Notes: a model not told the origin generated them from the sequence alone. A DNA stretch of 39,283 nt from Nitrospirota bacterium (GCA_022545705.1 JACZQN010000007.1:1-39283); one strand, 5' to 3'; shown: positions 19,072-39,116, counted from the first letter of the stretch. Made by a program: numbers and translations.

Positions 19072-20112
19072 TTAATCCCAAGTCCTCGGATAAAACCCGG
19101 TATGCCAGTACTCAAAGAGAATCACTTTCCAGATCTCGTCTGTCGTGAGGTGCTCCTCCCACCGCGGCATCGTAGATGCCCAGGGGAATGACTCACGGGG
19201 CAGCCCGATGCCGCCCTTGGAAACGCGCCAGAACAGAAACGTTTCTTGAAGCTGAGCGATCGTGCCCGAGTCGGTAAAGTTGGCCGGAATCGGATTGAAC
19301 GCAAACGCGTGTAACCCTCGCCCGTTCAGATTATCCCCGTGGCAGAAATGGCAATTCTGGAAAAAGACTTCTCCACCTTCCCGAACATGTTTCAGGTAGC
19401 CCTTCGCATCCGGATCCCACGGATTCGCATCAGGCTTCATGAGCCGCCCCATGCCCTGCTCGACAATGAGGTCATCGGTGAACCCCTGGTCATATTTCCC
19501 TTCCAGATCGACACGGTAGGGATTCTGCGCGGTCTGGAGCACGAACGTTCTCCCATGCACTTTGGTGGTGGCCGGTGGTGCCGGGTGGACTGTCCTCAGC
19601 TCAATAGGCTCCTCCAGGCTCGGCAGGAAAGATTGATAGGAAAACCCCCAGAGCAAAGCCGGGATGGCGATCAAATAGAACGTTCTGAGCGCCTTGTGAA
19701 ACGGCGTCATGGCATCCAGCACGTTCAGGATGGGCTGCTTGAACTGCTTCCAGTCCTCTTCGTTGCTGGACACCCACATAAAGACGGCGACTGCCGACAC
19801 CGCCAAATAGAGGGCCCGCACGCTATAAGGGATCGGCGGATAGATCCGAAATTTCAGGTACAACAGGAGGAAGACCCAAAACAGGGTCCCCTGCCAAAAC
19901 TTGGGAATCGCCAGCCCGTTTTGCGCAAGGAGATAGCTGAGGAGCGCGAACACGCCGACACAGGCAGTCAGCTCAATGAGCACCTGCATCGGCATGTAGC
20001 CTGGAACTAACTGAATCATCTGGGGCGAAACGAGGCCGCTCGACATGAGGAAGATAACGGCAAGGAAGATCCCACCAATTATTCCGCCGGCCCACAGGAT
20101 AAGCGATTTCAT
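19072..20112 (-). CDS. Membrane monohaem cytochrome c, four-helix N-terminus
   Basis: 346 residues. Four predicted transmembrane helices lie in the first 160 residues (about 5-25, 43-63, 74-92, 97-115) with another hydrophobic stretch near 144-160. A periplasmic cytochrome c domain carries CHFCH at 254-258 and a Met-rich tail (ASTMPRWEEH) that could supply the sixth ligand. AAGGAG lies before the ATG. It sits between the 441-aa and 592-aa cytochromes in the oxidase operon, with gaps of about 50 and 30 bases. It is likely a structural subunit of the same membrane complex. Confidence 0.86.
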   Translation of the reverse strand: MKSLILWAGGIIGGIFLAVIFLMSSGLVSPQMIQLVPGYMPMQVLIELTACVGVFALLSYLLAQNGLAIPKFWQGTLFWVFLLLYLKFRIYPPIPYSVRALYLAVSAVAVFMWVSSNEEDWKQFKQPILNVLDAMTPFHKALRTFYLIAIPALLWGFSYQSFLPSLEEPIELRTVHPAPPATTKVHGRTFVLQTAQNPYRVDLEGKYDQGFTDDLIVEQGMGRLMKPDANPWDPDAKGYLKHVREGGEVFFQNCHFCHGDNLNGRGLHAFAFNPIPANFTDSGTIAQLQETFLFWRVSKGGIGLPRESFPWASTMPRWEEHLTTDEIWKVILFEYWHTGFYPRTWD

Positions 20113-20163: not shown

Positions 20164-21489
20164 CTATGTAATGGGAGGTGGCTCTTTCCCTTCCTCAAGT
20201 TGGGAAAGGTAGTCGACGATCTTGTTGACCGCTCCGGCGTCCAGGAGCTTCCCGAATTCCTTGGGCATTTGGTTGTCCGGAAAACCAGGCACCACAAACG
20301 CGCTTGGGTTCAGGATGGATTCCGTCACGTATTCTCGAACCGACTTCGCCTTTCCTCCTCCTGGCGACCTTTTGTACTCAGGGGACCTTAGTCTCCTTGG
20401 GGCACTGGTGCCCTCCTCGAGCTTCGGGCCGATCTTGCCAATTGCCCCTTCAATACCCGGTATCGTGTGACAGGTCACGCATACCCCCTTCGTAAAGATC
20501 TCGTTCACCGGCTCCTCGCCGGTCGCCAGAACCCCACCAGCCGCTGGGGCCTCTACGTCAGTGGCCGCCTTGGGACGATCAGCTTCAGGAATAAACTTCT
20601 CGTACGACGCGAGAATCTCGTCGAACGTGGGTGGCTCTTTCCCCTCACGAACATACATCCAGGTATCCACCGCCGCCAGCTCGCCAAGCGTCAAGGAGAT
20701 GGGCGGCTTATGGATCCTCGGCATCTGGCTTTCCCGGTCATTCGAGCCTTTGAGGCCGAACTCCTCCACCACAAAGCAACTCGGACAGGCATGCGATTCC
20801 GCAATGTATTCCTGGACAGTCTCAGCCGTGCCGGCCCCTGGGAACGCTTCTTTGTCAACGGTATCCCGTGCCTCGGGGTTGCCTTTGCTGTAACGCGGAT
20901 CCTCCAATCGCTCCTTCGATCGATCAGCGATCCCAAACAGATTGGGAGCCCGCTCGCTCAAAAAGCCTTTGTTAAACCCGTGACAGAGGGGACACTGGCC
21001 TTTCCCAATGGCACCCTGAACTCTGCTCTGGCCGATCCCGCCGAAGATAATCTTCTCGCCCTCGTCAGCCAACTGCAGGGGCGACATGCCGCTGAAATCC
21101 AACTTGACCTCCGGAGGAGGAAAGCCGCCTTCCACTTGGGGCAGCCAGTTTCCGTACCCCGAGAGCGCCGCCGCGACCAAGAACATGAACCCGCCGATCT
21201 TGAGCAGCGCACCGATGTTTTTGAAATAGATCCCCATCATGAACGCGAGGGCGGTGACCAGCACGAGGGAGACTGGGACAAGCCGTGAATTGCCGAAAAA
21301 GCTCACCTTAAAGTTTTCAATCGCCATCAACGCCAAGAGGGCAGCGATGATACCGATGAAGGTCTTGAAAACTGCGCGCTGCCTGACTTGGGGATCCTTG
21401 AGACCGAATTGGAAGTATACGAGTAGACAGAATAAAACAACCAACACCGGCCATCCAAGGACGATCGCTGAACCTACTAACTCCAGCAC
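20164..21489 (-). CDS. Membrane dihaem cytochrome c, four-helix N-terminus
   Basis: 441 residues. Four predicted transmembrane helices (about 7-27, 43-58, 70-88, 96-112) are followed by a periplasmic region with two c-haem motifs, CPLCH (166-170) and CVTCH (337-341). A CPSC at 235-238 lacks the histidine and is probably not a haem site; it may bind metal or form a disulfide. The start is a GTG at 21489 with GGGAGG upstream. It lies between the bd-like oxidase and the monohaem cytochrome, with an intercistronic hairpin at 21504-21538. It is the best candidate for direct electron delivery to the oxidase (inference). Confidence 0.86.
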   Translation of the reverse strand: MLELVGSAIVLGWPVLVVLFCLLVYFQFGLKDPQVRQRAVFKTFIGIIAALLALMAIENFKVSFFGNSRLVPVSLVLVTALAFMMGIYFKNIGALLKIGGFMFLVAAALSGYGNWLPQVEGGFPPPEVKLDFSGMSPLQLADEGEKIIFGGIGQSRVQGAIGKGQCPLCHGFNKGFLSERAPNLFGIADRSKERLEDPRYSKGNPEARDTVDKEAFPGAGTAETVQEYIAESHACPSCFVVEEFGLKGSNDRESQMPRIHKPPISLTLGELAAVDTWMYVREGKEPPTFDEILASYEKFIPEADRPKAATDVEAPAAGGVLATGEEPVNEIFTKGVCVTCHTIPGIEGAIGKIGPKLEEGTSAPRRLRSPEYKRSPGGGKAKSVREYVTESILNPSAFVVPGFPDNQMPKEFGKLLDAGAVNKIVDYLSQLEEGKEPPPIT

Positions 21490-21570: not shown

Positions 21571-23523
21571 TTAGTGTCCAACAGCAGGCTGTGGGACTCT
21601 CCCGGGAACCGGAGCTGGCGCTTCCACAGGGACTTTCTTCACACCGAGCGTACCGAGCCAGAAGACGAACAGGATAGTGAACCAGAAGAACAACACGTTG
21701 AACGAAATCATATTCGCCGCGAAACCGGTCGTGTGGGTATAGGCCCAGGGCGAGTTATCCCGCATGATCTCGTTCACGTGCCAGAAGAGCCGGACCGAGG
21801 AGCGGATATACCCCATCAGCCCCATCATCCAGGTAAAGGCTGTGGCAAGCATAATCAGCGCGTACTGGGACCGCACTGAAATCTTCCCCCATTCAATCGG
21901 GCCGCTCATTTTTGCGCCCTTCAACATCGTGAGGTTCAGAGCCGTCATGAAGAAGAGACACGACAGTGTCGTGACCACCTGGGGGACCGACAGACCCACG
22001 CGGACATTCGCGGGGATGTAATACCCGTAAATGGCCAACCAGATGATATTGAGATACGCCAAGCCGAAGAAACATCCCATAAAGATATCGCCAAACTTGG
22101 CCCAGGGGACGATCGGCACCTTGTTTCCGCGCATATACCAGATGAAGCTCAGCACGGTGGTCGTGATAATGACGTTGATGCCTCCGTTCTTGGCTGACAT
22201 GACCCCGTAAGCGCCCAACACCGGGTGCTGCTGACCGCCCATTGCCTTGAGCTCGGTCGGCGTCATCACGATCGTGTGGGGGGTAATGAAAACCAAGAAG
22301 CCGACCACCAAGATGAACACAAGATATTTGATGTACCGTTGGTATTTTTCGGCGCCACGCATCCGCCCCAAGGCCTGCCACAGATAATAATTGGAGCTGA
22401 GGAACAGGATGCCGATCATGGTCGCCTGAATGATGAAGAGCCACGCAAGCAACCCGCCCATCAGGGTGATCCCCATCTGCTGGCGGTAGGCATAGACTTC
22501 TCGCATCAGCCAGTAGCCGGCAAACGGCAGCGGGATGAGGAACATGACGCCGATTGCCATCGCAACGTAGCCCATCCAGTCGTAGTGGGCACGCTCCTCA
22601 TCGTTCTTCGCCGACAAGAACCGGTACGCGGCATAGGCAGCCACCACGCCACCACCAAAGGCCATATTGCCCAGAAGCCGGTGGACATTGAGCGGGTTCC
22701 ACAGCGCGGTGTGGAGCACGTGCCAGATGTTCCCAAGATACCGCCCCTGCTCGTCCACCCCGGCCGGCGACATCATGAACCCGATCCAAGAATTCGCCAG
22801 CATCATCAAGGTTGTGCCGATCACGTTGAGGACGACCGACATGCTCAGATGGATCCATTTGAGCAGCCCTTCCTTCATCTTGTCCCAGCCGTAGTAATAG
22901 ATGTAAATCGTTCCGCTCTCGGCCACGAACAGCAGCGCGTAGATATGCATGACCGGCCGGAAGATGCTGGAGAGGTAGCCAAAGAAGGCTGGGTAGAGCG
23001 TCAGGAAGGTGAAGATCAAGATGCCGCCCAGAATCGCCGTGATCGAATAGGCGGTGATGCTGATTTTGATGAAGTCATACGCAAGCTGATCATACTTCTT
23101 CGACATGGCCTTGTCCTTCGACATGATCCCCACGAACTCGATGATCATGCAGAAGATGGGCACGGCGAGGACAAAGCTGCCGTAGTACAGATGCTGTTGG
23201 TTGGCAAACCAGAGAAGCACACGGCTCTCGAAATTATAACGGGGATAGGATCTAAGATCGTCTTCCGTTTTCGGGGCGGGCAGCCCGGACACGATGCCCT
23301 CAGTTTTGTAGTAGACGTCCCGACCCATCTCGACCTTCTGTCCTTCCTCGACAGCATCACCCTCTTGTTCCGCCAACACGTCGGGCGGTGGCCCGCCTGC
23401 TGCAGGCGCCCCTCCTCCAGCCGCAAGCGCGGGTATGGAGACAAGGATCGGGAACATCAGGAGGCCAATCATCGCGCTCAGCGCCATGATCGCCATCAGC
23501 TTCTTCCTGGTCTGACCGCCCAT
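21571..23523 (-). CDS. Cytochrome bd-like oxidase, 650 aa (Nitrospira-type)
   Basis: A polytopic membrane protein with an N-terminal signal or anchor helix (10-34), a short exported segment and about 14 further hydrophobic helices. It resembles the unusual bd-like oxidases described in Nitrospira as putative terminal oxidases. Conserved histidines include His111 (in QQH, comparable to a CydA haem ligand), His193, His225, His268, His271, His281, His416, His433 and His582. The CydA quinol-loop motif GRQPW is not seen, so electrons may come from the co-encoded cytochromes c, not quinol (inference). AAGGAGG precedes the ATG. It follows two tiny membrane proteins. A closely similar paralogue lies at 27330-29231. 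Haem types and oxygen reduction are not provable from sequence. Confidence 0.86.
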   Translation of the reverse strand: MGGQTRKKLMAIMALSAMIGLLMFPILVSIPALAAGGGAPAAGGPPPDVLAEQEGDAVEEGQKVEMGRDVYYKTEGIVSGLPAPKTEDDLRSYPRYNFESRVLLWFANQQHLYYGSFVLAVPIFCMIIEFVGIMSKDKAMSKKYDQLAYDFIKISITAYSITAILGGILIFTFLTLYPAFFGYLSSIFRPVMHIYALLFVAESGTIYIYYYGWDKMKEGLLKWIHLSMSVVLNVIGTTLMMLANSWIGFMMSPAGVDEQGRYLGNIWHVLHTALWNPLNVHRLLGNMAFGGGVVAAYAAYRFLSAKNDEERAHYDWMGYVAMAIGVMFLIPLPFAGYWLMREVYAYRQQMGITLMGGLLAWLFIIQATMIGILFLSSNYYLWQALGRMRGAEKYQRYIKYLVFILVVGFLVFITPHTIVMTPTELKAMGGQQHPVLGAYGVMSAKNGGINVIITTTVLSFIWYMRGNKVPIVPWAKFGDIFMGCFFGLAYLNIIWLAIYGYYIPANVRVGLSVPQVVTTLSCLFFMTALNLTMLKGAKMSGPIEWGKISVRSQYALIMLATAFTWMMGLMGYIRSSVRLFWHVNEIMRDNSPWAYTHTTGFAANMISFNVLFFWFTILFVFWLGTLGVKKVPVEAPAPVPGRVPQPAVGH

Positions 23524-23620: not shown

Positions 23621-23833
23621 TCATTTCCGGAACAGATACCAATAGTCCAGCCCTTGGTTATCCATCAAATAATGATTGACCAAGTGGAAATAGGCTATCG
23701 CGAACAGCAGGGAAAGAGTTACTGCGACATAGGTGTTATTCAAGAGTGCCTGGTTCTTCTTCCAAATCACCACGATCAGGACCACGGACAGCCCCATCAA
23801 CGCGTACCAAAAATTTGGGTTCGTTACATCCAT
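23621..23833 (-). CDS. Small two-helix membrane protein in the oxidase operon
   Basis: 70 residues with two predicted transmembrane helices (about 8-24 and 35-53) and a basic segment between them. No family is recognised. GGGAGA lies about 6 bases before the ATG. Its position just upstream of the bd-like oxidase (97-base gap) and after another single-helix ORF suggests a small accessory subunit, in the way CydX accompanies classical cytochrome bd (analogy only). Confidence 0.72.
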   Translation of the reverse strand: MDVTNPNFWYALMGLSVVLIVVIWKKNQALLNNTYVAVTLSLLFAIAYFHLVNHYLMDNQGLDYWYLFRK

Positions 23834-23872: not shown

Positions 23873-23989
23873 TCAGCATGGGCATTGAATCCCGTTCAAC
23901 CAATAAAACCACCCTATGCCCAACGCGGCGGTGATGTAAAAGATTGCTTTGCCGATTTTGATCTGGATATCGTCTTCTAGTGCTTGCAT
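23873..23989 (-). CDS. 38-residue single-helix membrane protein, first gene of the oxidase operon
   Basis: A short ORF starting at the ATG 23989-23987, with GAGGAG about 6 bases upstream, and ending in TGA at 23873. The protein has an acidic N-terminus (ALEDDIQIKIGK), one hydrophobic helix (about 15-34) and ends in CPC. It precedes the 70-aa gene by 39 bases on the same strand. The strong ribosome site, the position and the membrane helix support a real small oxidase-associated subunit. Confidence 0.6.
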   Translation of the reverse strand: MQALEDDIQIKIGKAIFYITAALGIGWFYWLNGIQCPC

Positions 23990-24251: not shown

Positions 24252-25157
24252 TCAGCTCGCCTGAGCGGGCGTTTCCCCACCCAAAATCTTCCCGGTTATC
24301 GCGCAGCGGAAGCCAATTGTTTCATCCCGAAAACCCGGTACCATGCGGCTCCGGCTCGTAATCCGGACATCGTTTCCCCTGCTCATGTACCCACCCCCGC
24401 GCATCACCTTATAGACGCCATGATCGGGCCCCATGGGGTTTCTCTTACTCGCATGACGATAGGCATCCTCCCCATACCAATCCTCAACCCACTCCATGAC
24501 ATTCCCGGCACCGTCCACCACCCCAAAGGGACTCACGTCCCGTTCGAAGGTTCCAACAGGCGCAGTGAATCGGTACCCGTCTTCGTTCCCCCAGTTTGAC
24601 GCTGTGCGCTCCAGCGCATTTCCCCAGGGCCAGAGCCGGCCATCCGTTCCGCGCATAGCCTTTTCCCACTGGGCTTCGGTCGGGAGGCGCTTGCCCCTCC
24701 ACCGGCAGTAGGCATCGGCATCCTCCCATGACACATACACGACCGGCTGGTTCGGGTCGCGCAAGCGCGCGATGTTTTTCGCGTACCGGGACGGTGGAGC
24801 AGCCTTGCGGTGGCCTGTCGCGGCCCGAAATTCTTGGTAGTGGCGATTCGTCACTTCGTAACGATCAATCAGATATGTGTCCAGGTGGACGGTTCCCTCA
24901 GGCTTTTCATCGTAGCCACCGGCGTTCGTCCCGCGGAGAAAGCTGCCGGCCGGGATGCGCACTATTTGTGGTTCGATCGGCGCCTGGCTGACGGCAACTG
25001 TGGTTCCGGCTCCCGGTTGATTGTCCGTCTCTTGCGCATCGGGGGAACCCACCTCGGGCGGAGGCGGCTTGGTCCCTCTCAGAATCCCCATCACCGGCAG
25101 GCTCGTCATGAACAAGACTGCCAGCAGAATAGCTACTTTGAACTTCGTTTCGAGCAT
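24252..25157 (-). CDS. Membrane-anchored SUMF1/FGE-fold protein (copy 1)
   Basis: 301 residues. An N-terminal helix (about 8-25) anchors or exports the protein, followed by a Pro-rich linker and an FGE-sulfatase (SUMF1) domain from about residue 65. Typical motifs are the RIPAGSFLRGT start, VSWEDADAYCRW with RLPTEAQWEKA, and NVMEWVEDWYG. The last part, VMRGGGYMSRGNDVRITSRSR, lacks the cysteine pair used by true formylglycine-generating enzymes, so it is probably not catalytic in that way. It lies at the end of the second oxidase locus, 152 bases after its paralogue at 25310-26200. A periplasmic structural or maturation role is possible, but unproven. Confidence 0.85.
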   Translation of the reverse strand: MLETKFKVAILLAVLFMTSLPVMGILRGTKPPPPEVGSPDAQETDNQPGAGTTVAVSQAPIEPQIVRIPAGSFLRGTNAGGYDEKPEGTVHLDTYLIDRYEVTNRHYQEFRAATGHRKAAPPSRYAKNIARLRDPNQPVVYVSWEDADAYCRWRGKRLPTEAQWEKAMRGTDGRLWPWGNALERTASNWGNEDGYRFTAPVGTFERDVSPFGVVDGAGNVMEWVEDWYGEDAYRHASKRNPMGPDHGVYKVMRGGGYMSRGNDVRITSRSRMVPGFRDETIGFRCAITGKILGGETPAQAS

Positions 25158-25183
25158 GGCTCCCAGGAGCGCTCTTCGTTATA

Positions 25184-25298
25184 CGTGATGCGTGAATCGC
25201 GGGGCAGTTGACAAGCGAGCAAGCTGACAGGCGGACAAGGTCCGGATAGGAGCTCGTCAGCTCACCCGCGCTTCACGGTTCACGCTTCACGTTTCACG
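25184..25298. repeat. Inverted array of heptameric and octameric repeats
   Basis: Between the two SUMF1-like genes, cgtgatg and cgtgaat (25184-25197) face four heptads cttcacg, gttcacg, cttcacg, tttcacg (25271-25298) in the opposite sense, so the ends can pair. Between them four octads run ttgacaag, cgagcaag, ctgacagg, cggacaag (25208-25239). A 13-base inverted match (cgtgaatcgcggg against cccgcgcttcacg, one mismatch) strengthens the hairpin. Related in design to 30354-30442. Confidence 0.75.
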
Positions 25299-25309
25299 TC
25301 TTTTGGCCG

Positions 25310-26200
25310 CTAATCGGGGTCCTTGGCGCACCGCAGCCCGATGGTGCTGTCAGTCCGCCACATGTTCGCCTGAAACCGCTTCGTAAGCCTGGCGCCCTGC
25401 GGGGTCTCACGCCATGAGCCTCCTCGAATGACCTTATGCTGCCCGTCACGGGGCCCCGTTGGATCACGATACGGTGTATCCTGGTAATAGTGCTCCTCAT
25501 AGGTGTCGGCCACCCATTCGGCCACATTTCCGGTCATCTCATAGAGCCCGTACGGACTTCTCCCCGACTCAAAGGAGCCCGGCGGCGCCAAGTACTGAAA
25601 TCCATCCTCCTCACCATCAACGTTCGCGCGGCCAGTTCCGAACTCGTCACCCCACGCATAGCGCCGCCTTCCTTCTCCCCGGGCCGCTTTCTCCCACTCC
25701 GCTTCGGTCGGCAGCCGCTTGCCCGCCCACCGACAATAGGCAACCGCGTCGCTCCATGACATCCCCATGGCCGCCAGCTCCGGACTCGTGATCTTGGAAA
25801 TATCATCGTCGAACACCGGCACAAACGGTTTGCCACGCTTGGTCATGCGCACGAAGCGCTCGTACTCGCCCTGAGTCACCTCTTTCAGATCCATGTAAAA
25901 CGACTTGAGATAGATCTGGTGCACCGGCGCCTCGTCAGGATCCCCCCCGGTGCTTCCCATTGTAAAAGGCCCCTCGGGAATCTCAACCATCTCGCGTCCT
26001 TCGTCACCGATGACCGTCCTGTACATCGAAAAATCCTGTGCCGCGACTGTGGCAACACGGGGGCGCTCGGTCTCGATCGAGGCGACCAATTCGCGCTGCT
26101 GTTTGGTCTTGTACGATTCGTACATCAGGCTCACGACCATGAGAAGGAACGACCCGAAGACGAACACGATCGCCCCGATCAGCACGCCTCTACTTTCCAT
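25310..26200 (-). CDS. Membrane-anchored SUMF1/FGE-fold protein (copy 2)
   Basis: 296 residues. An N-terminal transmembrane helix (about 7-27) is followed by a short charged linker and an FGE-sulfatase domain from about residue 72 (EIPEGPFTMGS), with AVAYCRWAGKRLPTEAEWEKAARG and GNVAEWVADTY. The C-terminal IRGGSWRETPQG segment lacks the catalytic cysteines of formylglycine-generating enzymes. The domain faces the periplasm if the helix is an uncleaved anchor. It follows the 127-aa membrane gene by 79 bases in the second oxidase locus, and its paralogue follows after a repeat island. A tandem duplication is likely, although the two have diverged clearly. Confidence 0.86.
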   Translation of the reverse strand: MESRGVLIGAIVFVFGSFLLMVVSLMYESYKTKQQRELVASIETERPRVATVAAQDFSMYRTVIGDEGREMVEIPEGPFTMGSTGGDPDEAPVHQIYLKSFYMDLKEVTQGEYERFVRMTKRGKPFVPVFDDDISKITSPELAAMGMSWSDAVAYCRWAGKRLPTEAEWEKAARGEGRRRYAWGDEFGTGRANVDGEEDGFQYLAPPGSFESGRSPYGLYEMTGNVAEWVADTYEEHYYQDTPYRDPTGPRDGQHKVIRGGSWRETPQGARLTKRFQANMWRTDSTIGLRCAKDPD

Positions 26201-26279
26201 AGTTCACCATCCGTCAGTTCGTGTAAGGCCCACGCCCTGGACCAGCCAGGTGCGAACGAGGCACGGGTAAGTTCAACAT

Positions 26280-26663
26280 TCACCCTGGCGGATCAACGGA
26301 CGCAGCCTGATGCTTGCGCTGAGCACGCATGTCCAACAGCATCGTGATCTGCACCCCCAGGAACCCGCCCATCGCGGCCCCAGCCCCAGCGCCAAAAGAA
26401 ACGGCCTCCAAGCCCGCTAAGACCCAGGCGAGCGCGCCGCCGCCGACCGCGCCGACCAGAATACTGACGAAAAACCGACGTCCGCCGAAGATCCCAACGA
26501 CCACGCCGAGAACGACACCGACCGTAGCCGCGACCGGAAGAGCGCCCCCGCCCATGATCAGCCCGATCAGGGTTCCGACCGTACCCATCACCGCCGCGCC
26601 CAACACCATGTCGGTGACTTTCCGCGCCGTCAGCCAGGATGTAAGCGAGTCGGTGCATGTCAC
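26280..26663 (-). CDS. Glycine/alanine-rich multi-helix membrane protein
   Basis: 127 residues, almost wholly hydrophobic, with about four transmembrane segments rich in Gly, Ala and Val, some in glycine-zipper spacing. No family is recognised. It begins with a GTG that overlaps the DUF3047 stop as GTGA (26663-26660), so translation is probably coupled. Its place between the DUF3047 gene and the SUMF1-like pair suggests it works with these exported proteins. A small C-terminal basic tail probably faces the cytoplasm. Confidence 0.66.
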   Translation of the reverse strand: MTCTDSLTSWLTARKVTDMVLGAAVMGTVGTLIGLIMGGGALPVAATVGVVLGVVVGIFGGRRFFVSILVGAVGGGALAWVLAGLEAVSFGAGAGAAMGGFLGVQITMLLDMRAQRKHQAASVDPPG

Positions 26664-27313
26664 GGGGCAGAGACTTTCAGTGGCCCAAAATCAACCTCTA
26701 CACCGGCCCCCCCCAACAGCGAGATCCCCCAGGCTTCGTTCGCTGGTTCATGCTGATGGATGCGTTTAAAATCCTCATACGCATTCACGCGTTCTTCAAC
26801 CCAGTCTCCGACCGGTTGTGTTCCGGTTCGCAGCACAATCTCGGTCGCGCCGAACAGTCCACCCTCTGTGATCGTTCCCTTCGCCCTGCTCGCACTCCAC
26901 ACGTACTTCGTGGAAACCGGAATAAAAATTAAATCCGTGTCCAGCGAGATGTACACGGCCGCGAGCAAGTCAGCGTCGTCCGGAACGGCCCGCAGTCGCC
27001 AGCGCCAGGTCACGGTCGGCATCGCCTTAGGGTCCCAGGCCATTTTCTTATACACGCGTTGTTCCGCCCCCTTTGCCGCCAGAAAGGCTCCGTCGGGCTC
27101 AGTCTGCACGGTGTAGGTTTGCTTGGCCTTGCACGTATTCCGTTGGGCCTTCCAGCCTGTGGGGAACCCCTCTCCGTCCTTCGATTGGAAATCTTCCAAG
27201 ACGATCGAACCGGTCGATTCACCGGCGACTCCCGGGTCACTATAGACGCCAACCACGAGGGCCCCTATGAGGACGCCCAGAACAGTGAGGCCCGAGAGCC
27301 GCATCATGCTCAT
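26660..27313 (-). CDS. DUF3047 exported protein
   Basis: 217 residues. A signal peptide (about 1-30) is followed by a beta-rich domain that matches the DUF3047 pattern: an EDFQSKDGEGFPTGW start, a WRWRLRAVP strand, and LIFIPVSTKYVWS. Function in the family is unknown; a jelly-roll-like binding role is possible. It starts 16 bases after the second bd-like oxidase stop and overlaps the next gene by 4 bases, so it is in one operon with both. No cofactor motif is visible; a single Cys occurs near residue 60. Confidence 0.8.
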   Translation of the reverse strand: MSMMRLSGLTVLGVLIGALVVGVYSDPGVAGESTGSIVLEDFQSKDGEGFPTGWKAQRNTCKAKQTYTVQTEPDGAFLAAKGAEQRVYKKMAWDPKAMPTVTWRWRLRAVPDDADLLAAVYISLDTDLIFIPVSTKYVWSASRAKGTITEGGLFGATEIVLRTGTQPVGDWVEERVNAYEDFKRIHQHEPANEAWGISLLGGAGVEVDFGPLKVSAP

Positions 27314-27329
27314 GGTTCGCCTCGGGCCT

Positions 27330-29231
27330 TCAAGAGGAAGGCATCTCCCTGGAGGTGGACGGCAAGAACGCTACGCGATTCTCCGGTCCCTGCTCGGTCC
27401 AGGAGATAGGCGGACGACTTCGGCTGCTGATCCAGAACAGCACCAGGACAACCATCCAGAACACCACCATGTTCACCGTGACCATTTTTGCGGCGAACCC
27501 CAGCGAGGGCGTGAAAGCCCACGGCGACAGATCCGGCATCAGCTCATGGATATGCCAGGAAAGCCGACCCGAAGACCGGATATATCCCATCAGACCCATC
27601 ACCCAGGTAAACGAGGCCGCCAGTCCGCAGAGGGCCACCATGCCCCGTACCGGGATTTTGCCCCACGCGATCGGGCCGTGTGATTTCGCCCCGCGCATCA
27701 TCGCCTGGTTGACCAGGAGGCTGCCCACAAGCACCGTCAGGGTGGTAAACGCCTGAGGCGAAGAGAGCCCCACCCGGACATTGGCCGGAATATAAAAGCC
27801 GTACACCGCCAACCAGACGATGTTGAGCATTCCGACCCCGAACAGGACCGCGATCGTCGCATTCCCGGCTCGCGCCCACGTGATCGTCATGGTCCGGTTC
27901 GCCCGTCGATACAGGATGTAGCTCAAGGCCGTGAGACAGATCATCACGTTAATGGCCCCGTTCTTGGCAGACATGACTCCGTAATTCCCGATCACCGGAT
28001 GCTGCGCGCCCCCCATCGCCTTGACCTCGGTCGCCGTCATGATCAGCGTGTGCGGCGTGAGCCAGACAAAGAGGCAGCCCGTCAGGGCAAGGACCAGATA
28101 CTTGAGAAAACGCTGATACCGCTCGGCCCCCTGGATGCGGCTCATCCCCTGCCAGAGATAGTAATTGATCCCGAGGAACAAGACCCCGATCATCAGGGCT
28201 TGCACCACGAACAGCCACGTGAGCAGCCCGCCCATCATGGTCACACCCATGCTTTGCCGGAACTCATAGACAGACCGCATGAGCCAATAGCCGGCAAACG
28301 GCATCGGGAGCAAGGCACACACCGTGACAAACAGGAAGACGTACCCGACCCAATCGTAATACGCCCGTTCCTGTTCGGATTTGCTGGTCAGGAACCGGTA
28401 GGCGGCATAGGCCATGACCACGGCGCCTCCGGACATCAGGTCGGCCAGAAACCGGTGGACGTTAAGAGGGTTCCAGAGCGCCGAGTGCAGCAGGTGCCAC
28501 ACGTTGCCAAGGTACCGGCCCTGCTCATCGACACCGGAGGGCGCCATCATGAACCCAGCCCACGCATTCACCAGCAACAGCAAGACACCCCCGAGCACGT
28601 TCGCGACGACCCCGATCGTAGCGTGGAGCCATTTCAGTCCTGGCTCGGCCATCCTGTCCCAACTGTAGTAATAGCTTACCAAGAAGATGGCCTCGGCCAG
28701 GAACACGAACGCGTACACCGGCATCATCACCTTGAACGTGCCGCCCATGTAACTCATGAAGGTGGGGTAGAGCCAGATGAACAGCCCGAGCATCACGACT
28801 CCGACCACCGCGGTCAGCGAGAAAGCGAGCAGCGCCACCTGAAGGAAATCACGAGCCAGCCGGTCGTATCGGACGGCCGAGGCTCTGTCTCGCGCAATCA
28901 GCCCCGCAAACTCGAGGATCACGCAGAAAATCGGGAGGGCCAGCACGAACCCGCCGAAATAGGTGTGCTGCTGCGTGACAAACCAGATCAGGGTCCGGTT
29001 ATCGAGCGACCCGTAGCGACGGTAGGATGAGGCGTCAGTGGATGGCACCGGCGGACCAAGGGGGACCCCCTCGGTCTTATAATAGATATCTGTCGCCGTT
29101 TCCGTTGTCGTCTGCCCTGAAGCAGCCTCGATTGCAACACCGAGCGTGCCGATGGCTAGGACAAGCACACAGACCACGGCGGTGAGCGGGATCAGCAGCC
29201 TGGACTTGTGAAGCATCCCCAGTGTGACCAT
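27330..29231 (-). CDS. Cytochrome bd-like oxidase paralogue, 633 aa
   Basis: Clearly homologous along its whole length to the 650-aa oxidase at 21571-23523, with the same YYKTEG exported segment, QQH motif (His89), NVWHLLHSALWNPLNVHR cluster, LTPHT and AQHPV histidines, and SWH near the end. It differs at two histidines of the paralogue: the residue matching His193 is Pro and the one matching His313 is Tyr. It lacks the neighbouring cytochrome c genes and has a DUF3047 gene downstream and an unknown membrane gene upstream. AGGGAG lies before the ATG. It may be an alternative oxidase, a non-catalytic relative, or an enzyme for a different substrate; sequence alone does not decide. Confidence 0.84.
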   Translation of the reverse strand: MVTLGMLHKSRLLIPLTAVVCVLVLAIGTLGVAIEAASGQTTTETATDIYYKTEGVPLGPPVPSTDASSYRRYGSLDNRTLIWFVTQQHTYFGGFVLALPIFCVILEFAGLIARDRASAVRYDRLARDFLQVALLAFSLTAVVGVVMLGLFIWLYPTFMSYMGGTFKVMMPVYAFVFLAEAIFLVSYYYSWDRMAEPGLKWLHATIGVVANVLGGVLLLLVNAWAGFMMAPSGVDEQGRYLGNVWHLLHSALWNPLNVHRFLADLMSGGAVVMAYAAYRFLTSKSEQERAYYDWVGYVFLFVTVCALLPMPFAGYWLMRSVYEFRQSMGVTMMGGLLTWLFVVQALMIGVLFLGINYYLWQGMSRIQGAERYQRFLKYLVLALTGCLFVWLTPHTLIMTATEVKAMGGAQHPVIGNYGVMSAKNGAINVMICLTALSYILYRRANRTMTITWARAGNATIAVLFGVGMLNIVWLAVYGFYIPANVRVGLSSPQAFTTLTVLVGSLLVNQAMMRGAKSHGPIAWGKIPVRGMVALCGLAASFTWVMGLMGYIRSSGRLSWHIHELMPDLSPWAFTPSLGFAAKMVTVNMVVFWMVVLVLFWISSRSRPPISWTEQGPENRVAFLPSTSREMPSS

Positions 29232-29240
29232 GTGCTCCCT

Positions 29241-30323
29241 TCAGCCTCGCCGTCCTGCTTCGCCCGATGCGGCATTCGCCGGCTGGACAGCCCCCCCACC
29301 CGATGCCATCCTGGACTTAGACAAGATGCCCATGACGAATGGGCAACGCAGTAAGGAGGGCGGAACGGTCTCCTGAATCCGGTTCTCCACATAGCGGCGA
29401 TGCCCGAGGTAATAACCATAGAGCCCCATCAATCCCCCTACCGCCGCGGCGGCCAGAGCCTGAAACGCCGGCAGCCTCGCGTCCATGCTGAGGGCGAACC
29501 AGGCCGCTCCCACCAGCGTCAGGTAATAGGTGGCCGCAAACGTTAGGCCCGGCCACCACCAGAACCGAAACAGCTCAGCCCAACTCACCGAGCCAAGCCT
29601 GAGCTTCCATCCATCCAGGCGCTGCTCTCCAGCCAGATAAGCCCACACCGCCAAGCTGCCGGCGAACAGGCAGACGACCACGAGCTGGCCGAGCTCGGTG
29701 CGACCGACCTCGGCGAGGTGAGCCACTCCGACCCCCAAGAGAGCGCAGCCTGCGGCGCCCAGCAACGACCACTTCGCGAGGACCCACGGTCGCTCGAGAA
29801 ACAGGGCGCGCAGCGGGGCGCCATCAGGAAAGGTCAAGATCGGTTCCCCCTGCCGCTGAATCCGCCGGACGTGCCCGATCTCGAACGCATCACGCGCCAC
29901 GGAGGTGCAGGCGATGATGATGGCGATCATGGCCGGACCATCCGGATGAACCAGGAAATCATAGTTCACGAATACTTTGAGCAAAGCCAGGACCATCAGG
30001 GAGAGTTGGACGCCATAGACAAATCCGATCCAGCCGACCACCCAGCTCAGCCTTCGCACTCCGTCTTCGTTCCAGATCGCAGTCGGGCTCTCGCCACGCC
30101 CGAGCCCATACACACACCCCGCCGTGACGGCTGACAGCAGCCCACTCACCGCCAAGAGGATCAAAGGATCGGAGAGCGGAACGACGAGCTTGAGGAGCCG
30201 GTAGATGAGAAACGCCACCAGGCCGGACGCCAGCATCACCCACCGCTTCCGCTTCCGCACCGAGTCCGCGGTCACTGCGAGCGCGAGCCGCGGCATCACC
30301 CGCAATGCAAGTCTGTGGATCAT
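29241..30323 (-). CDS. Unknown polytopic membrane protein
   Basis: 360 residues with roughly eight predicted transmembrane helices, starting at about residues 27, 55, 92, 127, 188, 212, 258 and 285, and a soluble loop at about 145-185. No family is recognised; no haem or metal motif is evident. The C-terminal 40 residues are polar and probably disordered. It ends 9 bases before the bd-like oxidase paralogue, on the same strand, so a role as a partner or assembly factor of that oxidase is reasonable (inference from position). Confidence 0.75.
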   Translation of the reverse strand: MIHRLALRVMPRLALAVTADSVRKRKRWVMLASGLVAFLIYRLLKLVVPLSDPLILLAVSGLLSAVTAGCVYGLGRGESPTAIWNEDGVRRLSWVVGWIGFVYGVQLSLMVLALLKVFVNYDFLVHPDGPAMIAIIIACTSVARDAFEIGHVRRIQRQGEPILTFPDGAPLRALFLERPWVLAKWSLLGAAGCALLGVGVAHLAEVGRTELGQLVVVCLFAGSLAVWAYLAGEQRLDGWKLRLGSVSWAELFRFWWWPGLTFAATYYLTLVGAAWFALSMDARLPAFQALAAAAVGGLMGLYGYYLGHRRYVENRIQETVPPSLLRCPFVMGILSKSRMASGGGAVQPANAASGEAGRRG

Positions 30324-30353
30324 AACCAGTCTCTTTCCAACAAGCGCGAGACG

Positions 30354-30442
30354 TCATGCGTGATGCGTAATGCGTGACGGGTACTGAAGAACTCATTAAT
30401 CATCACTCAACACTCATCACGCTTCACGCGTCACGCTTAACG
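30354..30442. repeat. Inverted heptameric repeat array reaching into the PCP_red gene
   Basis: Left array: tcatgcg, tgatgcg, taatgcg, tgacggg (30354-30381). Right array: catcact, caacact, catcacg, cttcacg, cgtcacg, cttaacg (30401-30442), opposite in sense so the two can form a long imperfect hairpin. The right array overlaps the last codons and the stop (30424-30426) of the PCP_red gene, encoding its terminal KRDA. Same type as 25184-25298. Confidence 0.8.
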
Positions 30443-30924
30443 GAAGCCATGCCGAAGTAGCGCGCTTTCACTTCGTCCATCAAGGACACCGTCACGCGTG
30501 ACACTCCGCGCTCGGCCGCCGTTCGTTCCAATTCGATTCGCGCCATGGCCCGAACGGGGGCCGGCACATTCTCCAGTCGCCGTTCAGCCTCAGGCTCCCA
30601 ATCGACTTGCCCACCCTGCCTGGCCTGGTTCATGAGCGCAAAGGTGACGACGCGTCGGCCCTTGGATCGCGCATAGTCTTCCACCTCGGACTTGACCAGA
30701 GGCGCCAGGTACGGGGGCATCCGGTCCAGCCGGTGCCGTGCATCATCCGTCCACATCACCCGATCAACCAGGGCCTCGGCGTCGTCGAACGGGGTCTCCA
30801 CCCCCACGCGAAGACCGCACCCCCGACATTCCGAGCGCAGGAACAGGGTTTCCGCTCCGGGTCCGGCCGCTCTCTCTTCCAGGCCCTCCGTGTGCATCCA
30901 CCGGCCACAGCCGCAGATCAACAT
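30424..30924 (-). CDS. PCP_red-domain protein with N-terminal zinc-ribbon-like cysteines
   Basis: 166 residues. Two tandem copies of the domain named for the C-terminus of protochlorophyllide reductase subunit ChlB/BchB (PCP_red) lie at about 58-100 and 109-155, each with a WxxxAxxRLxxxPxxxR start. The N-terminus has Cys4, Cys6, Cys33 and Cys36, which could bind zinc or iron. The organism shows no sign of chlorophyll synthesis here; in other bacteria this domain occurs alone and its role is not known. It begins 4 bases after the DUF420 gene. The C-terminal KRDA is encoded by a repeat unit, which may have changed the original end. Confidence 0.78.
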   Translation of the reverse strand: MLICGCGRWMHTEGLEERAAGPGAETLFLRSECRGCGLRVGVETPFDDAEALVDRVMWTDDARHRLDRMPPYLAPLVKSEVEDYARSKGRRVVTFALMNQARQGGQVDWEPEAERRLENVPAPVRAMARIELERTAAERGVSRVTVSLMDEVKARYFGMASVKRDA

Positions 30925-30928
30925 GTGC

Positions 30929-31645
30929 TCACCCGATCTTCCCCGGATAGAGGATGTACAGCATCGTGTAGGTCGCGCTCCCGGTCACGAACAGGACACA
31001 ATAAATGATCATCGTGAAACGACCGAGCATACGATGCCGGCGGGCCCCGTTGGGCCAAATCCGCTGGATCACCATTTCCAAGCTGAACACGATTGCGATC
31101 AACACGAGCAGAGAGAGCCAGACCACCAACTTCCCCACCCCAAACCGGTCCACACCGACGAGGAACAACAAATAGGCCACCACGATTGCCGTGATGACTC
31201 CGAAGATTGTGATGACCTTCCTCCAGGTCGTCCGCAGCGCCATCTCCTTGAGAACGCGTCTCCCGCCCTGGATCACTTGCACGCGGAACCCGAGCACGAT
31301 CATGTAGATGGCCATGACCAGGCCGATAGTCACCAGGGTAATATGAAAGGTCAGGAGCGGCACGAATACGTTCTCGTAAAGCGCCTCCGGGCCGCCGAAC
31401 CCTTCCTTCCCCTCGAACGCCAGCACCCCGAGCTGCCGGAAGAGGTAGTAGCTCGTGAAGAATACGATCATCGCGGTCATACCTCCGAGCATCAACCAGT
31501 GATGGGGATGGCCACGCACCCGCCTGGCCTGGAACCACCCGATTACGAAGAGGACGGTAAAGAGCGCCGCCATGGACTGGCTTAAGTCCGCGCCGATCGT
31601 CGCGTGCGTTCCATAGAAGCCCGGCTCTTTGAGCCATTCCAACAT
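30929..31645 (-). CDS. DUF420 (CtaM-like) membrane protein
   Basis: 238 residues with about six transmembrane helices. The segment FGGPEALYENVFVPLLTFHITLVTIG, with a conserved histidine, and the HPHHW loop near residue 46 match the DUF420 family. Its Bacillus member CtaM is needed to assemble haem-A oxidases. Here it could serve assembly of the neighbouring bd-like oxidase paralogue (inference). It follows the methyltransferase by 12 bases and precedes the PCP_red gene by 4, an operon-like arrangement. Confidence 0.82.
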   Translation of the reverse strand: MLEWLKEPGFYGTHATIGADLSQSMAALFTVLFVIGWFQARRVRGHPHHWLMLGGMTAMIVFFTSYYLFRQLGVLAFEGKEGFGGPEALYENVFVPLLTFHITLVTIGLVMAIYMIVLGFRVQVIQGGRRVLKEMALRTTWRKVITIFGVITAIVVAYLLFLVGVDRFGVGKLVVWLSLLVLIAIVFSLEMVIQRIWPNGARRHRMLGRFTMIIYCVLFVTGSATYTMLYILYPGKIG

Positions 31646-31657
31646 GGTCCCGCCTCC

Positions 31658-32641
31658 TTACACCCGCTTGCTTCCCTGAATCACAGCGGTCTGCTCGAGT
31701 TCCTCGACCAACTCGAACCCGGCTTGCTCCATCCAATGTCTGGCTTCAGACACTGTATAACAGCGCCCTCGCGCGGTATTGACCAAGATATGCACCGCAA
31801 ATGCCGTCGTCCACGCAGGGCTGGTCCCCGATTGATCCAGAAACCGATCCTTGATGACGAGGCGCCCCCCCGTTGTGACATGTGCAAAGGCCTTTCGCAC
31901 CAACGCCGCATTCGCGTCAGCACCCTGATAGTGGAGGATATCCGACATGAGCACAACGTCATAGGGCCCTCCCAGCGGATCGGCGTTGAAATCTCCTGCC
32001 TTCAATGTGATCCGGGACTCCAGCCCAGCCTCTTTGACTGTGCGCTCTGCTACCGTAAGGGTTTGGGGAAGGTCGAATACCGTGGCTCGCATGTCCGGGT
32101 ACGTCGTGCAGAACGCGATCGCGTTCGTGCCGGCACCTCCTCCTAGATCGAGGAGCGTCTTGGCATGATCCAGTTCCAGCCGCTGCGCCAAGGCCGGGCC
32201 GCTCTGCTGCCCGATACGGTGCAGCACCGATAGGACATGAGCGCCGAGTTCCGGGTCCGCTTCAAACACGTGGCGGCTGACCGGTGAGCGACCGGTGCGG
32301 AGTGTCTCCTCCAGCGAGCCCCAATTGTTCCATTCCGCATCGTGCAAAAGAAGTAAGTGCCCGACATATTGTGGCGACCCTTTCACCAGATGAGTTCGCG
32401 CTGCTTCGGCGTTTGCAAATCGGTCCCCATCTTTATTCAACACCCGCATCGCGACCAAAGCATTCATCAGCAAGGTAAGCGCTCGTTCGTCCGCCCCAAT
32501 CCGTTGGGCCAGCTCAGCGACGGTGCGCTGCTTCCCACCCAACGCCGAAAACACCTCGAGCGTGACCGCGGTCAGGAGGATCTTTGTCTCCCAGTAGTAG
32601 CCGACTTGGAAGATTTCGGCGAGCGACAATTCGCGCGGCAC
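31658..32641 (-). CDS. SAM-dependent O-methyltransferase (BchU/CrtF/acetylserotonin type)
   Basis: 327 residues. A winged-helix dimerisation domain (about 10-95) is followed by a class I SAM-binding fold with motif I LDLGGGAGTNA near 171 and a GGRLVIKDRF segment. The family methylates small hydroxylated molecules and includes tetrapyrrole and carotenoid enzymes; the substrate here is unknown. The start is a GTG at 32641 with GGAGG upstream. It leads the run methyltransferase-DUF420-PCP_red. The pairing with a PCP_red protein hints at tetrapyrrole chemistry (speculative). Confidence 0.86.
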   Translation of the reverse strand: MPRELSLAEIFQVGYYWETKILLTAVTLEVFSALGGKQRTVAELAQRIGADERALTLLMNALVAMRVLNKDGDRFANAEAARTHLVKGSPQYVGHLLLLHDAEWNNWGSLEETLRTGRSPVSRHVFEADPELGAHVLSVLHRIGQQSGPALAQRLELDHAKTLLDLGGGAGTNAIAFCTTYPDMRATVFDLPQTLTVAERTVKEAGLESRITLKAGDFNADPLGGPYDVVLMSDILHYQGADANAALVRKAFAHVTTGGRLVIKDRFLDQSGTSPAWTTAFAVHILVNTARGRCYTVSEARHWMEQAGFELVEELEQTAVIQGSKRV

Positions 32642-32889: not shown

Positions 32890-33708
32890 CTACTTTCCTT
32901 TCTTTCCTTGAATGACGAAGTTCGCTTTGACCGATCCACCATCAGGGACATCCACGTCGGCTTCCACCTTCCCGGCCACCGGATGCCAGGCCAGGACTTT
33001 ATGCTTCCCGGCTGGGACATCCTTAATTTCGAACGTGCCGTCGTCCTTCACCACGGTGTAGTACGGATTCTCTACTGGGAGGTACCAGCCCTGCATGAAT
33101 TCATGCTGATCGCACTGGAGGCGCATGACAGAGCCCCTCTTGGCCATCCGCATCTTGATCTTCTTTTCCAGACTATCGCCTTTCTTGGCCAACCCGATGT
33201 TGAACAGGGTGGAAGACTTGGCCCCCAACACATCAAACGAATGGGGGTTATGAAGCACTCCCAACTTTGATGGAAAATTACCTTTCGGTCCCGGATCGTC
33301 GGGATCTGCGTCAAGGTTCTCGACGTAAAACTTTCGCTTGTTCACCAGCACGCCGGTGTACGGAAGAAACTCACAGAGCTCAGCGACGACCTCTGTGCGT
33401 TTGTACCCTTTCATCCACTTTTTGTCCTTAATGTCCCGCACCGAGACCACGGCATATTTCAAACCACCACCCTTCGTAACTTGGACTTCCTTGAGCAGAC
33501 GGGTCTCACCATCCGCGCTCTTGCTCGGGTTCTTTTTGCAGAACTTAGTGTTGGGAAACTTCGAGAATAGAAACTCCTTGGGCGGTGGCACCTTTCCGGT
33601 GTAGGTCACCTTCCCCGTGATAGTCCCACCGGCCTGGGCAACCAATGGGGCGGCGATGAGCGCAGTTCCCACCAAAAGAGACAGTATGAAAAATTGACGC
33701 GTCTTCAT
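32890..33708 (-). CDS. Exported cupredoxin-like, carboxypeptidase-regulatory-fold protein
   Basis: 272 residues from the ATG at 33708, which has AGGAGG 7 bases upstream and a signal peptide (MKTRQFF..., about 1-25). The frame is open for 81 more codons upstream, but these carry no signal. The start of the mature part (GGTITGKVTYTGKVPPPKEF) and the end (DDGTFEIKDVPAGKHKVLAWHP) are a split carboxypeptidase-regulatory-like beta sandwich. In between, NPHSFDV and CDQHEFM suggest a His/Cys/His/Met set like a type 1 copper site, as in methylamine-utilisation-type proteins (inference). It is a paralogue of the frameshifted gene at 38204-39116. It could bind copper in the periplasm or carry electrons. 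A strong promoter lies upstream. Confidence 0.8.
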   Translation of the reverse strand: MKTRQFFILSLLVGTALIAAPLVAQAGGTITGKVTYTGKVPPPKEFLFSKFPNTKFCKKNPSKSADGETRLLKEVQVTKGGGLKYAVVSVRDIKDKKWMKGYKRTEVVAELCEFLPYTGVLVNKRKFYVENLDADPDDPGPKGNFPSKLGVLHNPHSFDVLGAKSSTLFNIGLAKKGDSLEKKIKMRMAKRGSVMRLQCDQHEFMQGWYLPVENPYYTVVKDDGTFEIKDVPAGKHKVLAWHPVAGKVEADVDVPDGGSVKANFVIQGKKGK

Positions 33709-33849
33709 GGTTCTTCCTCCTGAATTGAAAAACTTTGGCCGATCAAGCGAGTCTCGGTTGGTAGTTCCAAGGCAGGCACACTCGTATGGTATCAAACAAG
33801 CGTACGCGCGGGAAAGACCCTCAGGACCTCCTGTGTCACAGGGGCGATT

Positions 33850-38203: not shown

Positions 38204-39116
38204 TTATTGGCGCTTGACTGTCGGAAGGATCGTGAGGGGCCGACCTAGCGCTCCCAGCCCAAACCGGGAAGGTCTCTGCACTGTGTGTGCTGTCCGACGG
38301 CCAATTGGTGCCTTCAGTTGGAAATCGACGCTCAGGGTTCCTCCCGGTTCAATGGTGACTGTTCTCTCAGCCACGCCCTTGATCTGAGGATGCCAGGCCT
38401 GAAGGCGATAGGTCCCCGGGGGAACCATCGATGGCGTACTGACCTTGTGAATCAGTCATCGCGTAATACGGATTGTCCACCGCAAACGCCCAACTCTCCA
38501 TATACGCATGGAAACCACATTGCATGACGAAGATTCGCCGCCCTTTGCTCAAGTGAAACTGCTGCACCATGGACTTCCCCGGACGGTGGTCATGAGTTGC
38601 ATGCAAATCCCCACGCTTATGCTCGTGATTCATTGGCAACGGGGAGTTAAAGAGAACGCGGGCTCCCAACCTCCGAGAGGTCTCGTACGCCTGCACATCG
38701 TGCATCACCGGGTCCATATTGACCACTTCGACCCCATGCCCATCTCTTACGACATTCGTAAACGGAAGAAACTGGCAATCGCGGGCCATGACACGTGGAA
38801 TCGACATTGAGAAGGGCTTCCCCGTCTCAATCCCTTCCAACATGACCACGACATCTTGAATCCGACCGCCAGCGCCTACCGTGAAGTCGTGGAGGAGCCG
38901 CCACCCCTCACCATTCGAAATGCGACCGCAGTACTCAGGATCGGGGAAGGTGACCAAATTGAACCCTTTGGGCTCCGGCACAGGGCCCAGTAGCGTCACA
39001 GCGCCCGTAATGGTTCCTCCGTTTTTAATCTCCCCGACTTCATAGGCGAGCGCAGGAGATGGCACCACGAAGATGAGGATGAGAGCACATAACCGCCAAC
39101 GTGTTGAACGTGTCAT
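38204..39116 (-). pseudogene. Cupredoxin-like carboxypeptidase-regulatory protein, frameshifted near 38425
   Basis: One frame (39116 to 38367) encodes a signal peptide (about 1-24), the start GGTITGAVTLLGPVPEPKGF and a likely copper-type motif CGFHAYM, matching the protein at 32890-33708. After DSQGQYAID (near 38425) it turns into unrelated sequence. The proper end, VPPGTYRLQAWHP through a strand-rich tail, continues in another frame and stops at 38204. Compared with the paralogue's IKDVPAGKHKVLAWHP, this needs one base removed or two added at the GG next to the C5/G4 run. It is either a real mutation or a sequencing error. The intact product would be about 300 residues. Confidence 0.82.

Follow-up and report, generated by a model that had tools for sequence, protein, structure and literature searches.

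How the major nitrite oxidizers reduce O2 is unsettled, most of them being without a heme-copper oxidase and their bd-like proteins being biochemically uncharacterized. In Nitrospina, Kuenenia, and Nitrospira, the gene cluster of the bd-like oxidase has been reported to hold mono- and diheme cytochromes c, an alternative NxrC, and cupredoxin-like proteins, and in these bd-like oxidases the Q-loop is replaced by helices and the bd quinol-binding residues are lacking (PMC3578206). In Nitrospira, bd-like_3 has been found with two cytochromes c and alt_NxrC_2, and a duplicate, bd-like_4, lies a few genes away in all Nitrospira (PMC6606698). For the OR-N type CydAA', two CydA-type proteins have been proposed to pair, likely oxidizing cytochrome c (PMC12342949, PMC10839748). 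We analyzed a window of 39,283 nucleotides, which is the whole of one contig (GCA_022545705.1 JACZQN010000007.1:1-39283) of a Nitrospirales genome of 2.17 Mb, and in it the stretch 24252-32641, which encodes the bd-like_4 protein (bd4) among a set of putative helper proteins.

The stretch holds nine genes, all on the minus strand and Pfam-backed wherever a family exists. From 32641 to 24252, they encode a methyltransferase, a DUF420 protein, a PCP_red protein, a membrane protein here called MemX, bd4, a DUF3047 protein, a Gly-rich protein, and two SUMF1-domain proteins. This bears out the first-pass annotation, which had placed a 633-amino-acid bd-like paralogue among these genes. Directly downstream are the genes for bd3 (bd-like_3, 650 amino acids), for a pair of membrane cytochromes c, and for an NxrC-like protein. 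We give slightly better than an even chance to the reading that the stretch does not encode an independent oxidase but makes up the upstream half of a single locus for a respiratory complex, in which bd3 and bd4 would assemble into one CydAA'-like complex served by a common assembly kit.

The gene order from the methyltransferase through the second SUMF1 gene to bd3 was the same in 20/20 Nitrospirales genomes, which represent three families, and this conservation far exceeds chance. A bd3-profile search was also performed, and its best 80 loci, all from Nitrospirota, were named; the complete order was present in 53 of the 80, N. moscoviensis (L172) among them. The incomplete loci were explained by contig ends, an assembly gap, or the sorting of overlapping open reading frames (ORFs), with seven exceptions. 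These seven (L159-L163, L178, and L219) had adequate flanks, came from lineages outside the nitrite-oxidizing families, and carried only the SUMF1-bd3-cytochrome c-NxrC-like genes. Only one internal deletion seemed to occur, a loss of DUF420-PCP-MemX in L204, and it was rejected, the site being a 100-N scaffold/assembly gap. The helper-gene neighborhood is a real, strictly conserved module; the first-pass annotation had proposed a survey of this kind, and non-conservation in other Nitrospira was not seen.

The features of the window on which the analysis draws are as follows.

31658-32641, minus strand: S-adenosylmethionine-dependent methyltransferase; Methyltransf_2, 83.8 bits, plus a dimerization domain; nearest NCBIfam model BchU, far under its cut-off.
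30929-31645, minus strand: DUF420 (CtaM-family) membrane protein; PF04238, 60.2 bits.
30424-30924, minus strand: PCP_red protein; two PCP_red domains, 89.5 bits, and a zinc-ribbon-like segment with an invariant CxC...CxxC.
29241-30323, minus strand: MemX, an 8-helix membrane protein of 360 amino acids without a Pfam family.
27330-29231, minus strand: bd4, a CydA-fold bd-like protein of 633 amino acids; PF01654, 79.5 bits.
26660-27313, minus strand: DUF3047 protein, 56.1 bits, with a signal-like N-terminal segment and conserved H186, H188, and E189.
26280-26663, minus strand: Gly-rich small membrane protein of 127 amino acids, overlapping the DUF3047 gene by 4 bp.
25310-26200, minus strand: anchored SUMF1-domain protein 2 (SUMF1-2); FGE-sulfatase domain, 193.4 or 194.0 bits in the two SUMF1 proteins; no FGE catalytic Cys pair.
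24252-25157, minus strand: anchored SUMF1-domain protein 1 (SUMF1-1); FGE-sulfatase domain; no FGE catalytic Cys pair; class-wide the nearest large gene upstream of bd3.
23873-23989, minus strand: microprotein 1, 38 amino acids, one transmembrane helix, C-terminus QCPC.
23621-23833, minus strand: microprotein 2, 70 amino acids here and about 40 elsewhere, with the core VDHxLMDxQGLDYWYLFRK.
21571-23523, minus strand: bd3, a CydA-like bd-like protein and class-wide core.
20164-21489, minus strand: membrane cytochrome c with two CXXCH motifs.
19072-20112, minus strand: membrane cytochrome c with one CXXCH motif.
17263-19041, minus strand: alt_NxrC_2-like protein with two cytochrome c domains, an EB_dh heme-b domain, and a C-terminal transmembrane segment.
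32890-33711, minus strand: periplasmic cupredoxin-like protein with an invariant His and C-x2-H-x2-M, also encoded ahead of the bd3 core in most relatives.

The CXXCH heme-c motif was absent from the nine genes and occurred five times in the three cytochromes of the bd3 operon, in agreement with the first-pass annotation; no CydB match was found among the scanned genes of the unit. The "several gene overlaps" of that annotation were overstated. A single overlap of 4 bp was present (DUF3047/Gly-rich), and the genes are closely spaced, gaps of 4, 9, 12, and 16 bp separating most neighbors in the first half of the unit.

Families are referred to by the labels of the genome collection used (f1, f2, etc.). 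Elsewhere in the class, families kept the core SUMF1-1-bd3-cytochrome c-cytochrome c-NxrC-like, without bd4, MemX, or the cluster PCP_red gene. SUMF1-1 was upstream of bd3 throughout the sampled families and was joined in several by SUMF1-2 and the cupredoxin-like gene, which were often upstream of the core in families without bd4. The DUF420 and methyltransferase genes were also neighbors in two other families of the class (outside f1-f3, DUF420 follows the methyltransferase in f7 and f10). In f6 and f8, DUF420 was located in a thioredoxin-like-DUF420-Mrp-PCP_red-TenA-like run, and a similar run was found in f5; in f6, whose genome has one bd-like gene only, the DUF420/PCP_red run directly adjoins the bd3 operon. 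Since DUF420, PCP_red, and SUMF1 occur in the bd3 context without bd4, their association with bd3 is independent of bd4. The helpers are mostly older than bd4. In f7, a divergent bd4-like gene (L136:7895-9793, L139:4212-6293) is transcribed away from SUMF1-bd3; the tree groups it outside bd4, and it is possibly a separate duplication.

The bd3 and bd4 proteins of the window share 52% identity. Compared with the window copies, identity was 59-73% for bd4 and 77-88% for bd3, and the bd4 sequences were monophyletic in the tree, with 100/100 support and a long stem. By these comparisons, bd4 is a faster-evolving duplicate of the neighboring bd3. The AlphaFold model of bd4 (pLDDT 82) matched CydA at Z 33.0 over 346 residues (7ose_A) and at Z 29-33 for nine more CydA chains; the match to subunit F of alternative complex III (ACIII) was weaker (Z 23). 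Seven histidines conserved in bd3 are retained in bd4 (H89, H203, H249, H259, H394, H411, and H560). The bd3-invariant H193 and E342, the latter also present in the genome's two other bd-like proteins, are lost and replaced by Pro and Ser, respectively. In the alignment, the equivalent of the E. coli heme ligand H19 was invariant (H89 in bd4, H111 in bd3) and the position of the active-site E99 was Tyr in both; in the second half, the alignment was not reliable for mapping the CydA ligands M393 and E445. Judged from helix order in the model rather than from superposed coordinates, the Q-loop for quinol appears to be absent, with predicted extra helices at residues 335-478. The residue pattern of bd4 fits a heme-binding partner subunit. 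The genome's other bd-like pair (L056, G000:C96) sits with membrane-protein and cytochrome c genes, and a UbiA-like prenyltransferase gene is nearby.

The distribution of bd4 was compared with that of nitrite oxidoreductase (NXR). An NxrB-type subunit (434-450 amino acids, 173-179 bits to TIGR03478) was found only in f1, f2, and f3, the same families as the bd4 set, and the NxrB of the window genome matched subunit B of the Kuenenia NXR with an E value of 1.7e-174. NxrB was not found in f4, where the hit examined was DmsB-like, or in seven other genomes of the class, and the bd4 set was absent there too. Most likely, bd4 arose as a bd3 duplicate on the branch to the NXR-bearing Nitrospirales.

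The cluster DUF420 protein belongs to the same Pfam family as CtaM of Staphylococcus aureus and Bacillus subtilis (PMC4958251, PMC13344008). CtaM is needed for a-type heme-copper oxidases, and the survey in PMC4958251 reported no exception to its co-occurrence with ctaB; a part in copper export is proposed in PMC13344008. DUF420 was present in the cluster of 32/32 Nitrospirales genomes (60.2 bits in the window, gathering threshold 30.5), with invariant H48, H49, H101, and H204. Histidines were common to it and to the other, shorter Nitrospirales DUF420 copies when compared by eye; a second, shorter DUF420 gene occurred elsewhere in about half of the genomes. However, a full or near-full heme-copper oxidase subunit (PF00115, >100 bits) was detected in only 3/32 genomes and in 0/11 of f3; weak partial matches of 19-46 bits in some f1 genomes were not counted. 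Likewise, the ctaB model TIGR01473 had no match over its cut-off in 41 genomes, the best (L276) being UbiA. Unlike CtaM, the Nitrospirales DUF420 therefore persists without a detected heme-copper oxidase or ctaB in most genomes. Because DUF420 is present in 32/32 genomes while these partners are mostly undetected, the cluster DUF420 probably serves the bd-like enzyme. Service to a heme-copper oxidase elsewhere is unlikely, the full PF00115 being absent from 29/32 genomes and from 11/11 of f3, and heme O or A synthesis was rejected for want of a ctaB match over cut-off, the best being UbiA. The retention of DUF420 hints that CtaM-type cofactor loading is not limited to heme-copper oxidases. A membrane protein at L273:786-2348 (G000:C100), present in several f1 genomes as well, matches heme-copper oxidase subunit I weakly and partially (37 bits).

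We infer that copper may be the cargo of DUF420. This idea is encouraged by the cupredoxin-like neighbor, with its invariant His and C-x2-H-x2-M, and by the cupredoxin-like genes in the Kuenenia/Nitrospina cluster (PMC3578206). The neighbor at 32890-33711 had no Pfam or NCBIfam cupredoxin match. Another secreted cupredoxin-like protein that carries an invariant C-x2-H-x2-M is encoded at 38367-39116, again on the minus strand, and it likewise had no Pfam or NCBIfam match.

Between SUMF1-1 and bd3, two unannotated small hydrophobic ORFs, each of a single helix, were found class-wide; the first-pass annotation had overlooked them. Profiles matched the two microproteins in 102/121 and 103/120 of the scanned loci, roughly half of the unmatched loci having no bd3, and related pairs were read by eye in the SUMF1-bd3 gaps of f6, f7, f8, and f10 too. 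Variation by codon position was 2443 at the third position versus 1341 and 1008 at the others for one microprotein and 2998 versus 1002 and 429 for the other. Since the third positions are the most variable, both carry a coding signature. The C-terminus of microprotein 1 was CPC in the f1-f3 copies read; in many relatives, though not in f6, it was His or had His close by (VVHH, YH, GFIH). Like CydX of cytochrome bd (PMC4325964), the microproteins are small and hydrophobic, of about 40 amino acids, and encoded beside the oxidase gene; they differ in being two, both upstream of bd3, and in having no CydX Pfam match. No Pfam or NCBIfam model, CydX included, matched above cut-off, and sequences this short do not allow absence to decide. 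By analogy, the microproteins are probably small structural subunits. Taking these threads together, we speculate that the Nitrospirota bd-like oxidases are copper-dependent or specially metallated, need a CtaM-type loader and two microprotein subunits, and changed the ligand-like C-terminal residues of a microprotein from His to Cys-Pro-Cys as nitrite oxidation arose; as a whole, this proposal is improbable.

The PCP_red protein (166 amino acids) is without the nitrogenase-like catalytic domain of BchB, its best NCBIfam score being 52.5 bits to BchB against a cut-off of 509. BchU/BchB-like chlorophyll chemistry was rejected, the model scores being far under the cut-offs. The window genome encodes another PCP_red protein, linked to Mrp, at a different site, and a comparable extra copy was present in 10/10 Nitrospirales genomes checked. 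In a conserved run (L125-L128, L131, L134, L137, G000:C107/L272), an Mrp-type Fe-S carrier ATPase stands with PCP_red, and often the next proteins encoded are a TenA/heme-oxygenase-like one and one with four PCP_red copies; many of the long PCP_red repeat proteins of Nitrospiria are without a known role. The SUMF1 proteins have only two conserved Cys each, about 135 residues apart, and a sulfatase-activator role was rejected, the FGE catalytic Cys pair near the C-terminus being missing. For the MemX fold, no convincing PDB match was obtained, none going beyond E 0.38 in Foldseek or Z 5.8 in VIA; this does not prove the fold to be new. Remote relatives of MemX in other Nitrospiria (L065:9142-10092, L069:9427-10377, and similar) adjoin MlaA, MlaC, MMPL, and M16 peptidase genes, which suggests an envelope-lipid link for the wider MemX family.

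By analogy with CydAA', bd4 would most likely associate with bd3 and add another CydA-type membrane subunit to a complex that would also hold the cytochromes c and the NxrC-like subunit. The bd-like subunits would receive a cofactor, copper or heme b, from DUF420; DUF3047 and the two SUMF1-fold proteins would work at the periplasmic face, and PCP_red, the methyltransferase, and MemX would work in the cytoplasm and membrane. Electrons may flow from nitrite through periplasmic cytochromes or cupredoxin to O2, or to quinone in reverse transport. Several points weigh against such a shared complex. The bd3-bd4 pairing is putative, being predicted from the genes; the match between bd4 and NXR concerns one clade and possibly one event. 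Two f2 metagenome-assembled genomes have MemX while NxrB has no match (G037) or fragments only (G040), and the near-complete f1 genome G220 shows no MemX. The divergent f7 gene beside SUMF1-bd3 comes without the helper set, and relatives of DUF420, PCP_red, and MemX are found elsewhere in other contexts, so that their function need not concern the oxidase. Furthermore, all of the listed bd3-conserved histidines are kept, and bd4 may be catalytic.

If bd4 were an independent specialized O2 reductase with its own maturation genes, its full CydA fold in the model, the seven retained histidines, and the helper genes directly adjoining it would be expected. However, bd4 lacks partner genes of its own, whether for a cytochrome c, CydB, or another protein, bd3 is always alongside, H193 and E342 are lost, and the helpers accompany bd3 in lineages without bd4. 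We regard such an enzyme as quite unlikely. The first-pass annotation had offered two options, a specialized oxidase that has a maturation apparatus to itself or factors serving both oxidases. The former was not supported and is probably wrong, bd4 adjoining bd3 as its faster-evolving duplicate; the latter is the better option, since the helpers stand with bd3 in relatives without bd4. A maturation role is plausible for DUF420 as a CtaM-family protein (PMC4958251, PMC13344008), though not as part of an apparatus for a separate oxidase.

PMC3578206 and PMC6606698 proposed an ACIII-like electron gate, in which bd3/bd4 would pass electrons from nitrite to quinone in reverse transport rather than act as an oxidase. 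It would suit the missing bd quinol-binding residues and replaced Q-loop (PMC3578206), the extra helices of the model and its ACIII subunit F match, and the related bd-like protein of anaerobic anammox bacteria (PMC3578206). Nevertheless, the fold clearly matches CydA better (Z 33 versus 23), relatives that do not oxidize nitrite have the core as well, and no quinone site was identified in this analysis; this reading is unlikely, if the most credible of the alternatives. The helpers might otherwise be merely co-transcribed housekeeping or envelope genes, kept together for expression reasons, as the MemX relatives beside MlaA, MlaC, MMPL, and M16 peptidase genes and the PCP_red relatives with Mrp and TenA-like genes would allow. 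However, genes that stand in different contexts across the class have been brought together and held to a single order in three families, the cluster PCP_red gene is an extra copy in addition to one kept elsewhere, and DUF420 is kept where no heme-copper oxidase was found, which leaves this explanation very unlikely.

In the literature searched (mostly without subscription papers and supplements), no description was found of the helper set or the microproteins, and the distribution of the set by family and the DUF420 anomaly likewise appear to be undescribed. The first-pass annotation had known of no described system with this set, which stands for the helpers; bd-like_3 and bd-like_4 were already reported in Nitrospira (PMC6606698). 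The helper set, the CtaM-family loader, and the two microprotein genes make a concrete gene list for purification, structure determination, and heterologous expression. With the cluster of PMC3578206, the locus shares the bd-like protein, the cytochromes c, the alternative NxrC, and the cupredoxin-like proteins; the passages of that report consulted make no mention of the duplicate bd4 or the DUF420, PCP_red, MemX, and SUMF1 set. The bd3 and bd4 genes are the same as bd-like_3 and bd-like_4 of PMC6606698, L172 being N. moscoviensis itself. The intervening genes are undescribed in the searched parts of that report, whereas here they form a fixed set with a family-level distribution and two microproteins. 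As in OR-N CydAA' (OR-N1 plus OR-N2, NIDE0901-like), two CydA-type proteins are encoded together, bd3 and bd4 being in one locus in 20/20 genomes, and by analogy we take them as another such pair.

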